From Hyphomicrobiaceae bacterium (GTDB lineage: Bacteria > Pseudomonadota > Alphaproteobacteria > Rhizobiales > Hyphomicrobiaceae), in assembly GCA_022844225.1 (NCBI GenBank), contig JALHMC010000001.1:186001-250000 (forward strand): a DNA stretch of 64,000 nucleotides. The letters are read 5' to 3'. Within the stretch, counting starts at the first letter, position 1, and the number at the start of each line of letters is the position of its first letter. Under the pieces are notes generated by a model, which worked only from the letters and a program-made list of their open reading frames with translations, did no database searches and had not been told where the DNA came from. Shown one piece after another: positions 57,687-61,022 of this stretch. Both the position numbers and the translations under genes were made by a program.

Positions 57687-58979
57687 ATGAGCCGCAGGGA
57701 ACCGAGCATGAATTCACCCGGTGCCGGGGGCACGCGTAAGGACGGAAAGCCAGCCCTGCCTTCTCTCGCCATTCTACCGTTCCGCACAATGCACGACGGC
57801 CTCCTGCGCGCAGACTTCGCCAATTGCGTAACCATGCGGATCACCGAGACGCTGAAGAGCGTCAAGGCGATGCGCGTGATCGCAGCCGCGTCGACCATGA
57901 ATTTGCCCCACGATATGCCGGTCGCGGAAGTCGGACGCTGTCTCGATGTCGACTATGTACTCCGTGGGCAGATCGTCCGAGCCGACCAGACGCTCTACTT
58001 CACGCAGTGGCTCTACCAAGGGTTATCCGGCGAACTCATCCTCGAGCATGAAGTGGAATGCGGGCTCGGTCAGCTGGAGGGGTTTGAGCGCGACGTCCTG
58101 GCCCGCGTCATCGCCGACGTTCGGTTGCCTCTCCTGGAAAGCGAGATCGACCGGATCATGGCTAAAAGGCCCCGGGAGGGATCTGCCTACGAGCTAGCGC
58201 TTCGGGCACAGGTCGCTATGTGCAGGCTCGATCGCCGCAGCGTAACACGCGCCAAGGCGCTACTCGAGCGCGCCATTGAGAAGGACCCCGGCTATGCAAC
58301 GGCCTATGCTTGGCTGGCGCGGTACTATTCGATCCGCATCGGCCAAGGCTGGACGACAGACCCTGCTGCCGACGCCAACGAAGCGCGGCGCCTTGCCGAG
58401 TGCGCCATCGCGCGAGATCCCGAGAACGTTGTTGCCCTGGCAACCGCAGGACATTTGGCGTCCTACCTCGACAGGAACTTCGCTGCTGGCGAGCGTCTGC
58501 TTCGACGCGCCGTCAAGATTTGCCCGAACGAGCCGCTCGGCTGGCTTCTATTGGCTGGAACACTGGCCTATACCGGGCGACCAACCGAAGGACGCAAGGC
58601 TGTCGAGTACGCGCTGACACTGTCCCCCATCGATTCGCAGGCCAACTTTTTCTATAATTTCGCTGCGGTCTGCTGCTACGCCGAAGGCGATTACGAGGCG
58701 GCGATCCGGTATGCTCAGCGGTCGTTCGAATTCAATCCGCGCTACTCCACGACCCTCAAGGCACTTGTGGTCTCGTTGGTCGCTTGTGGCCGTGTGGCGG
58801 AAGCCCGCGAGTATGCCGCCCTGCTGCGCAAGTGCGAGCCGGCCTATACGGCCGCCCGCGCCGCCAGCACGGTCCCGTTCCAGGACAGGGTCCTCAGAGA
58901 GCAGTTCCTCCGTCAGTTGCGTACTGGGGGGTGTTTCGACTCCCCCCGCTCGACGCGCAGCCCAAGGCGAACCCGCTAG
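57687..58979 (+). CDS. TPR protein with cyclase/CadC-type N-terminal domain
   Basis: The 430-residue protein starts SLAILPFRTMHDGLLRADFANCVTMRITETLKSV (in pieces) and VGRCLDVDYVLRGQIVRADQTLYFTQWLYQGLSGELI. This is the FlgO/TolB-N-like domain that in class III adenylate cyclases and CadC-type regulators sits between the output domain and TPRs. Here no cyclase or DNA-binding domain precedes it. From about residue 170 to 390 there are TPR-type helices (AKALLERAIEKDPGYATAYAWLARYY, EARRLAECAIARDPENVVALATAG, AIRYAQRSFEFNPRYSTTLKALV). The C-terminus is Arg-rich. It has no signal peptide and is probably cytosolic. Its stop codon shares a CTAG with the stop of the convergent DUF6065-like gene. Confidence 0.78.
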   Translation: MSRREPSMNSPGAGGTRKDGKPALPSLAILPFRTMHDGLLRADFANCVTMRITETLKSVKAMRVIAAASTMNLPHDMPVAEVGRCLDVDYVLRGQIVRADQTLYFTQWLYQGLSGELILEHEVECGLGQLEGFERDVLARVIADVRLPLLESEIDRIMAKRPREGSAYELALRAQVAMCRLDRRSVTRAKALLERAIEKDPGYATAYAWLARYYSIRIGQGWTTDPAADANEARRLAECAIARDPENVVALATAGHLASYLDRNFAAGERLLRRAVKICPNEPLGWLLLAGTLAYTGRPTEGRKAVEYALTLSPIDSQANFFYNFAAVCCYAEGDYEAAIRYAQRSFEFNPRYSTTLKALVVSLVACGRVAEAREYAALLRKCEPAYTAARAASTVPFQDRVLREQFLRQLRTGGCFDSPRSTRSPRRTR

Positions 58980-59785
58980 GCACCTCCCTCCGCTGCCTCG
59001 GAGCGGTGCACAGCCCCCGCTTTGCGCACTCTGGCCGCATAGGCGCCGCGCCGACGTTGCGGCGCCGCGTTCGGCTTCACGACCGTATCCCGGTAGCGGT
59101 CCCAATCGTCCTCTGTCAAAGCACCGATGTCGGCATCGACCCGAATGTCATTCAGCCTAGCGTCGTCATAATCGATCCGACGCACCGGTTGCACCTGCAT
59201 GAACGGCACGTCCTCATCGAAGTCGATCGGGGCACCCGTCCGCGTCAGCCGGATATTGGTGAAGAGCCCGGCGAACCAGCCGTCGGTCTCGATGATGCCC
59301 TCGTAGAGTTCGTACCCCGATGGCCGCGGGAGATTGGCAACGGGCCTGACCAGCAGGCTCCATCCCGGCGCGGTCTGGGCAATCGATCCAGGCCAGACCT
59401 GCACCGTACCCACCTGCACAGAAGCCGCCAGAAAGGGCTGTGCATAGCCACGCGCATCCTCCGGTGCCACCCGATCAAACACCTCTGGAAAGCCCGGATA
59501 GTGGATCGATCGGAGCGGCAGGAAGTCATCCATCCCGGGGAGGCGCCAGGAGACCTCGCACCCGTCCCAGAGTAGCTGAAAGCGGCGGGGCAGAAACACA
59601 TGCCAGCCAAAGGCCGATGCGGCGGATACGGGCTCGCAATAGCGTAGCGCGCGGACTGGCAGCGTGCCCCCGACAGACCGGTCGGCGCGGCGAGGAGGAC
59701 GACCACCGTCCACGACCTGAATAAACCGGGCCAAAGGTACTTTATTGACCGTTGGCGCACCGGCCTCGATCGAAATCGAACCCAT
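58976..59785 (-). CDS. DUF6065-like protein of unknown function
   Basis: The 269-residue protein resembles what I remember of the DUF6065 family. It has PVRALRYCEPVSAASAFGWHVFLPRRFQLLWDG, then PGWSLLVRPVANLPRPSGYELYEGIIETDGWFAGLFTNIRLTR, and FDEDVPFMQVQPVRR. No catalytic residues are known to me. A basic, unstructured C-terminus (QRRRGAYAARVRKAG) follows a segment EDDWDRYRDTVVKPN. The track start at 59929 covers promoter-like DNA; GAGGG nine bases before the ATG at 59785 decides the start. It lies 187 bases downstream of the repeat-peptide gene on the same strand, behind a promoter-like sequence and a hairpin. Its stop overlaps that of the TPR gene. It may act on or with the peptide, which is inference. 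Confidence 0.72.
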   Translation of the reverse strand: MGSISIEAGAPTVNKVPLARFIQVVDGGRPPRRADRSVGGTLPVRALRYCEPVSAASAFGWHVFLPRRFQLLWDGCEVSWRLPGMDDFLPLRSIHYPGFPEVFDRVAPEDARGYAQPFLAASVQVGTVQVWPGSIAQTAPGWSLLVRPVANLPRPSGYELYEGIIETDGWFAGLFTNIRLTRTGAPIDFDEDVPFMQVQPVRRIDYDDARLNDIRVDADIGALTEDDWDRYRDTVVKPNAAPQRRRGAYAARVRKAGAVHRSEAAEGGA

Positions 59786-59813
59786 ATTATCATCCCTCTT
59801 ACGACAATCGAGG

Positions 59814-59836
59814 ATAGTCGGAGAAAATCCGACTAT
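59814..59836 (-). promoter_or_regulatory. perfect hairpin in the leader of the DUF6065-like gene
   Basis: On the minus strand ATAGTCGGA pairs perfectly with TCCGACTAT around TTTTC. It ends about 16 bases before the GAGGG ribosome-binding site and about 28 bases before the start codon. There is no T-run, so it is more likely a leader or processing hairpin than a terminator. Confidence 0.7.
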
Positions 59837-59851
59837 AATAACCGCATAGAT

Positions 59852-59880
59852 ATTATAATGTCCCGCCATAAAACACGCAA
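59852..59880 (-). promoter_or_regulatory. sigma70-type promoter candidate for the DUF6065-like gene
   Basis: On the minus strand TTGCGT (-35) is followed after exactly 17 bases by a consensus TATAAT (-10). A transcript would start near 59845 and begin just before the hairpin at 59836. The surrounding DNA is AT-rich for this genome. Confidence 0.6.
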
Positions 59881-59972
59881 TGGCGCGACTGACACCCGAC
59901 ATTTGATATCGAAGACAGCACGGGACCACCCGGGTGAAAAAACCCCCGGGTAGAACCGCGCCTCCGCCCCTA

Positions 59973-60137
59973 TTACCAGGGCATCAGGCTGTCCCCAAGG
60001 CGCACCTTCGGCGCCTCGGTCCATGGCGACAGGCTGTCGCCGAGCCGCACGCGCGTGAACTGCTCGGAGGAGGAGGTGGTGGCCGTCTCGTCGGCTTTGA
60101 CGGCAGGTTGCGATATCGACTTGATCGACTTCGTCAT
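59973..60137 (-). CDS. 54-residue repeat peptide, candidate modified-peptide precursor
   Basis: The gene is short; the ORF track merges it into a longer 109-residue frame. AGGAG seven bases before the ATG at 60137 marks the start. The peptide has a Lys/Ser/Thr/Ala-rich first half (MTKSIKSISQPAVKADETAT) and ends with two near-identical decapeptides, VRLGDSLSPW and VRLGDSLMPW, joined by TEAPK and followed directly by the stop. Of the five codon differences between the repeats, four are synonymous and one is Ser/Met, so the peptide sequence is conserved. There is no Cys or Tyr. A leader plus repeated C-terminal core is the layout of RiPP precursors with several cores. The neighbours are a sulfotransferase and a DUF6065-like protein. 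Peptide processing is inference only. Confidence 0.75.
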   Translation of the reverse strand: MTKSIKSISQPAVKADETATTSSSEQFTRVRLGDSLSPWTEAPKVRLGDSLMPW

Positions 60138-60326: not shown

Positions 60327-61022
60327 TCAAAACTCGTAGCCGAAATGCGCGATTTCCGGTGCATACCAGTCGGAAACAAGCGCTCGGGAGGCATCGGTAT
60401 ACATGTCGCGATAGCTGCCTTGCCTTGAACGAGACACGTTCTCGCGTGGCAATGTCACCCGACCCGACAGTCCGAGCGTGGAAAGCACTTTGGCGAAATC
60501 AACGTCGAGGCTCTCATAGCGGCCGATGTAGTCGAGTGTGACGTGATCCTCCTCGGTGTAGAGGCTCCAATTCTCGACGAAGGCGCGGCGACGATCACGA
60601 TTGAAGTCATCGAACGTGGGCCGCGCATCAGCGGGCCTCGATTTCGTTTTGTAATGATACCACGAGACTTGCCGATCCCATGGGTTCCGCTCGAAGCTGA
60701 ACTTGAAATACTCTCGCCAGACCTCCTCACCCGCATAGGTCCGGATCCGCCACGCAGGCATATGCTCGTAGTATCCGACTGACGGATGATAGTGCCGCTC
60801 GGGCCGGCCGAGCAGTGTCTTCCACAACGGCCGCCCCGGCTTCGCGGGATGATCGATCCGGAAATTCTGCGCCGGCTTCTGGCGAACGCCGCGCAATTGC
60901 TCGCTCGCTTCGGTGATGACGTCGTCCGGCCCGCAGATCGCGGAGAGCGCTGCCTCGATCGATGTCGAGCCCGTCTTATAGGTCTTTACGTAGATGAACT
61001 TGTGAGCGTGACTCAGGATCAT
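60327..61022 (-). CDS. sulfotransferase family protein
   Basis: The 231-residue protein begins MILSHAHKFIYVKTYKTGSTSIEAALS. KTYKTGSTS matches the PAPS 5'-phosphosulfate-binding loop of sulfotransferases. FKFSFERNPWDRQVSWYHYK resembles the 3'-phosphate-binding region with its Arg and downstream Ser. Transfer of sulfate from PAPS to a hydroxyl or amine is the family reaction; the acceptor is unknown. The track start at 61145 adds 41 residues; GAGG seven bases before the ATG at 61022 is better. It is the first minus-strand gene of the island, 189 bases upstream of the repeat peptide. As the peptide lacks Tyr, Ser or Thr hydroxyls would be the only peptide acceptors; a lipid or glycan acceptor is equally possible. 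Confidence 0.82.
   Translation of the reverse strand: MILSHAHKFIYVKTYKTGSTSIEAALSAICGPDDVITEASEQLRGVRQKPAQNFRIDHPAKPGRPLWKTLLGRPERHYHPSVGYYEHMPAWRIRTYAGEEVWREYFKFSFERNPWDRQVSWYHYKTKSRPADARPTFDDFNRDRRRAFVENWSLYTEEDHVTLDYIGRYESLDVDFAKVLSTLGLSGRVTLPRENVSRSRQGSYRDMYTDASRALVSDWYAPEIAHFGYEF

Follow-up and report, generated by a model that had tools for sequence, protein, structure and literature searches.

Multi-core RiPP precursors are known from the cyanobactins, graspetides and dikaritins. The locus described here resembles them in that a small gene encoding several near-identical cores of varying number lies beside a dedicated gene, and genes for transporters and regulators are often close by. 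It differs from them in the partner, which belongs to DUF6065 (PF19541) and has a predicted dUTPase-like fold, no known maturation enzyme or recognition domain having been found, and in the peptide, where the repeats and not the leader are conserved, Cys is rare and no Ser/Thr is fixed. We found no literature on DUF6065 or on the peptide motif among open-access papers, and a description elsewhere is possible. The peptide is one member of a hitherto undescribed family of small repeat peptides in bacteria, encoded immediately 5' of the gene for a dedicated DUF6065 protein.

The window, i.e. the whole 64,000-nucleotide stretch of Hyphomicrobiaceae DNA that was analysed, contains a minus-strand ORF (Table 1) whose 54-aa translation is MTKSIKSISQPAVKADETATTSSSEQFTRVRLGDSLSPWTEAPKVRLGDSLMPW, followed by the stop codon. 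As the sequence-only reading had described, the decapeptide VRLGDSL(S/M)PW occurs in it twice; the two units have a period of 15 aa, with the linker TEAPK. Their codons (unit 1, GTG CGG CTC GGC GAC AGC CTG TCG CCA TGG; unit 2, GTG CGC CTT GGG GAC AGC CTG ATG CCC TGG) differ at five of ten positions, as had also been noted: those for Arg, Leu, Gly and Pro by synonymous third-position changes, and Ser to Met through two changes. When six random nucleotide changes without a stop were simulated, at most one amino-acid change resulted in 0.7% of runs, so the repeat pair taken alone is modest evidence of selection, which becomes strong once homologues are added. An AGGAG lies about 9 nt 5' of the ATG, likewise in both orthologues. 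An alternative in-frame TTG start further upstream (60302) does not displace the ATG at 60137, which has the AGGAG. Another DNA match, of 30 nt, in the same genome was rejected as due to chance.

Table 1. Features of the repeat-peptide locus, in window positions.
Feature	Position	Strand	Evidence
TPR protein without the DNA-binding N-terminus of BTAD/SARP-type regulators	57687..58979	+	blastp; Pfam
Candidate modifying enzyme or partner (269 aa; DUF6065 family; dUTPase-like fold predicted)	58976..59785	-	PF19541; AlphaFold; Foldseek
Gap between the two genes, with a strong G+C-rich hairpin immediately past the peptide stop	59786..59972	-	MFE -74.5 kcal/mol, z -3.8
Gene for the 54-aa repeat peptide, a proposed multi-core precursor	59973..60137	-	ATG 60137, TAA 59975-59973; AGGAG; orthologues G001, G002
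Repeat unit 2, VRLGDSLMPW, runs up to the stop codon	59976..60005	-	ORF translation
Repeat unit 1, VRLGDSLSPW	60021..60050	-	ORF translation
Fast-evolving N-terminal 29 aa, resembling a leader	60051..60137	-	pN/pS 0.77 vs 0.25 in repeats
Sulfotransfer_2 protein; membership of module uncertain	60327..61022	-	PF03567 E 7.8e-13

A search of related genomes with the window peptide returned two clear homologues, both from the same genus, while weak protein matches in more distant genomes (E 0.05-1) were dismissed as noise. The G002 orthologue has the units VQLGDGLSPW and VRLGDGLMPW and that of G001 has three units; divergence among the orthologues is mainly synonymous. By Nei-Gojobori counts, which are small here, pN/pS is 0.17 between the two window units; against the nearest orthologue, G002, it is 0.25 over the 25 C-terminal codons and 0.77 over the N-terminal part, which was aligned so as to keep differences to a minimum. 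It is therefore mainly on the repeats that selection acts. The proposal that selection keeps the peptide while the DNA drifts is supported by these values, which are well under 1; frameshifts or stops in the repeats of the homologues, set beforehand as refuting it, are absent. Selection and the ribosome site together let us infer that the ORF is translated. Neither peptide nor DUF6065 gene was found in a third genome of the genus (G003), so the module is patchy even inside the genus. The sequence-only reading had further taken the unit, ending in Trp, as the functional part. Copy number varies between two and three within the genus, which would be expected of a unit that is itself the functional element, and this part of the proposal gains from it; the Trp ending turned out to be a local form, since Phe is the usual last residue of the unit in the family as a whole, with Leu, Trp or another residue in some cases.

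The gene next downstream of the window peptide encodes a divergent DUF6065 protein, which lay beyond the coordinates of the sequence-only reading and was missed there. With the DUF6065 protein alignment alone as bait, 27 loci were recovered from the genome collection. A small same-strand ORF was located directly upstream of the DUF6065 relative in 34 of the 40 loci with enough upstream DNA (L043, with 221 nt only, was excluded from this count), and these ORFs usually hold 2-12 copies of a module close to D-x-G-[KR]-V-[RK]-[LIM]-G-x-x-x-P-x-[FLW]. Over the whole family the copy number ranges from 1 to 12, the period from 11 to 31 aa and the distance between precursor stop and DUF6065 start from 1 to 199 nt. 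Precursors with two units (L064, DQGKVRLGDQAPVF), three units (L052, ADSGKIKIGGGNINL), five units (L045, ADAGRVRLGGQGPAF), six units (L050, ADAGKVRFGGNAPSL), nine units (L047, DSDRVKVGGMQPTF), ten units (L057, KVVTGGMAVPHL) and twelve units (L075 of G119, VRMGSGELPPRVAKHVKATQ) were found, as well as two single-unit precursors (L058, L060) and three with divergent repeats that show the motif in part only (L059, L062, L063). On a Rhizobium plasmid, three units (DDGKVHIANKSPAF) lie in an annotated hypothetical protein, followed by DUF6065 and then an MFS gene. The remaining six loci, four from Elioraea together with L044 and L061, had no such peptide nearby. A later DUF6065-profile search of 385 genomes added four full-length relatives besides that of the window (L077, L079, L080, L081), all four with a repeat peptide upstream; one of them (L080, in G333) has a single in-frame TAG in the DUF6065 gene behind its ten-unit precursor, from a pseudogene or a sequencing error. 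The taxa represented include Alpha-, Beta- and Gammaproteobacteria, one Polyangiaceae MAG and one MAG labelled Actinobacteria, and MAG labels may be wrong.

In the viral collection, the peptide was found upstream in 7 of 11 contigs. The other four, IMG/VR contigs L121, L123, L124 and L129, begin about 22 nt or less from the DUF6065 match, where the repeat gene belongs; assemblies may be interrupted at repeats or acquire false terminal repeats from them, so that a bacterial and not a viral origin of these contigs is possible. No relative was found in phage records or PHROGs. Pfam/NCBIfam matches of high-copy precursors (CsrA, PAAR, ribonuclease HII and others) were set aside as low-scoring repeat artefacts.

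The strict motif pattern gave 40 matches in 15.4 kb of upstream sense DNA against 5 in 680 kb elsewhere, three of them inside the long L047 precursor and 2 outside precursors, and a self-repeat score of at least 8 was reached by 60% of 25 upstream segments vs 0.9% of 900 control segments. No repeat peptide was found upstream in the typical DUF6065 loci L065-L070, nor in a third DUF6065 group (L071-L074, L076). Phylogenetically, the peptide-linked proteins cluster together (94/82 support), separate from both peptide-less groups; deep placement is uncertain because of long branches. In the third group, Ser/Asn-repeat proteins with signal-peptide-like N-termini adjoin DUF6065 on the opposite strand (L073:6840-7451, L074:6636-7184). 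On a conjugative Sinorhizobium plasmid (L119:4492-5705), the gene for DUF6065 and a repeat-free hypothetical gene upstream of it overlap.

The window partner scores 57.1 bits against PF19541, above the cut-off of 26.6, and is divergent, typical members reaching more than 300 bits. Across 39 DUF6065 proteins, C50, N151, G163, T167 and P194 show no variation, and almost none is seen at E/D166 and D168; C50, N151 and T167 are common to the window protein and typical members. Conserved across all DUF6065 groups, C50, N151 and T167 with E/D166 and D168 look catalytic. The protein has a predicted dUTPase-like fold: in its AlphaFold model (26 sequences; pLDDT 85.8, pTM 0.73), the top 50 Foldseek matches in the PDB are all dUTPases (best E 4.7e-4; TM by target 0.48-0.74), dUTPase-Stl repressor complexes among them. 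In a viral structure library, dUTPases were matched too, with uncharacterised phage proteins ranked first. At the sequence level, there is no Pfam match of the window protein to PF00692, no match of the DUF6065 profile in a PDB sequence search, and an hhalign comparison with dUTPase profiles that is not significant (probability 0.2%) and collinear in register only. In that alignment, TAPGWSLLVRPVANLPR and GIIETDGWFAGLFTN fall on dUTPase motifs II and III (e.g. GIIETDxWFGPLFTN vs GTIDADYRGEVxVxLxN), and the Asp of motif III is Glu in DUF6065. We infer a putative active site with a chemistry differing from dUTP hydrolysis.

The order TPR gene, DUF6065 gene, peptide and sulfotransferase is shared by all three species of the genus that carry the module. 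The window TPR protein is homologous over about 390 aa to the C-terminal half of BTAD/SARP-type regulators in other genera (blastp against L047, L048, L062 and L050, E 6e-62 to 3e-35), the DNA-binding and BTAD part being absent, and looks like a regulator of this type that has lost its DNA-binding N-terminus. Regulators with BTAD and TPR domains adjoin L047, L048, L050 and L060, and TPR relatives adjoin L051, L062 and L075; at L047 (362-6758), three such regulators stand in tandem beside the nine-unit precursor. EamA transporters adjoin L040, L042, L047, L048, L051 and L064, and MFS transporters were found at L075 and L118. The Sulfotransfer_2 gene adjoins the peptide in the window, L038 and L039 (inverted in L039, from G001) and was seen in none of the loci of other genera; we dropped it as a tailoring enzyme, as it was not found beyond the genus and the repeats lack Tyr. 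No dedicated protease is conserved near the peptide/DUF6065 loci, and no RiPP enzyme or recognition domain was detected by Pfam/NCBIfam among the window genes and selected relatives' precursors and neighbours. The hairpin between the two genes has counterparts in the orthologous gaps (z -7.2 and -4.4) and in many other loci, where it is terminator-like in L057. In the window its T run sits in the loop and we do not call it a terminator; it is a possible attenuator between precursor and partner gene.

We favour, with moderate confidence, the explanation that the ORF is the multi-core precursor of a RiPP-like system whose DUF6065 partner recognises and most likely covalently modifies each unit. 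A RiPP-like pathway fits best because of the repeated small substrate, the dedicated partner, the variable copy number, the attenuator-like hairpin and the transporter and regulator neighbours; the locus has the short precursor with a conserved, repeated core that such a system calls for. Each 15-residue unit would be one copy of the module, bound and most likely modified by the adjacent DUF6065 protein; units may then be cleaved off and exported as active products, EamA or MFS transporters lying beside several relatives. The hairpin would keep precursor RNA above enzyme RNA, and SARP/TPR-type regulators, in the window a TPR protein derived from that family, would control the locus. Our guess is that D, G, K/R, V, R and G form the recognition part of the unit and that the x-x-x-P-x-F tail is the product. 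Against this explanation, we know of no modified peptide or catalytic activity for DUF6065, and covalent peptide chemistry by a dUTPase fold would be unusual. Conservation is also higher in the repeats than in the N-terminus, whereas a leader and core typically show the opposite, and the six peptide-less relatives and the lack of a conserved protease and of RiPP-type domains in the genes scanned weigh on the same side.

The peptide might instead be an unmodified binding partner of DUF6065, its repeats occupying the dUTPase-like pocket or the trimer interface as a multivalent scaffold, inhibitor or signal. This is the most serious competitor, and we consider it unlikely: gene pairing and motif conservation fit it equally, the conservation lies in the repeats themselves and not in the leader, and dUTPase-fold proteins can be protein-binding switches, as in the dUTPase-Stl complexes, but the conserved DUF6065 residues look catalytic, and a highly variable copy number that includes single units suits precursor expansion better than a fixed assembly. 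A role for the peptide as a repetitive structural or surface protein (a beta-solenoid or fibre), with DUF6065 as chaperone or processing factor, is improbable. The ten-repeat L057 protein was modelled as a regular beta-strand ladder, but at a pLDDT of 62 only; periods range over 11-31 aa, several members have a single unit, and a signal peptide is not evident by eye. Slightly less probable again is a secreted pheromone sensed by the adjoining TPR regulator in the manner of RRNPP signalling. SARP/TPR-type regulators (the TPR half in the window) do stand beside the module in several genera, but none is near many members and their kinship is with the SARP/BTAD type, not RRNPP; a pheromone would also be compatible with modification and so is a rival only in part. 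A chance ORF or non-coding feature, which the shortness of the ORF and the unannotated family might suggest, has a negligible probability: the ORF has a ribosome site and orthologues in two species, it is under purifying selection, and more than 30 precursors that share the motif occupy the corresponding position.

Judged from sequence, the repeat peptide probably qualifies as a candidate for a new class of peptides modified by an enzyme. More tentatively, and with doubts that slightly outweigh our belief, the peptide-linked DUF6065 protein may represent the first case of a dUTPase-like fold in a peptide-modifying enzyme, defining an undescribed proteobacterial class of multi-core RiPPs with the module D-x-G-[KR]-V-[RK]-[LIM]-G. 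To our knowledge, no dUTPase-like fold occurs among peptide-modifying enzymes. If true, this would assign a function to part of DUF6065, add a new fold to the peptide-modifying enzymes, and open up more than 30 natural precursors whose repeats would be ready-made substrates.
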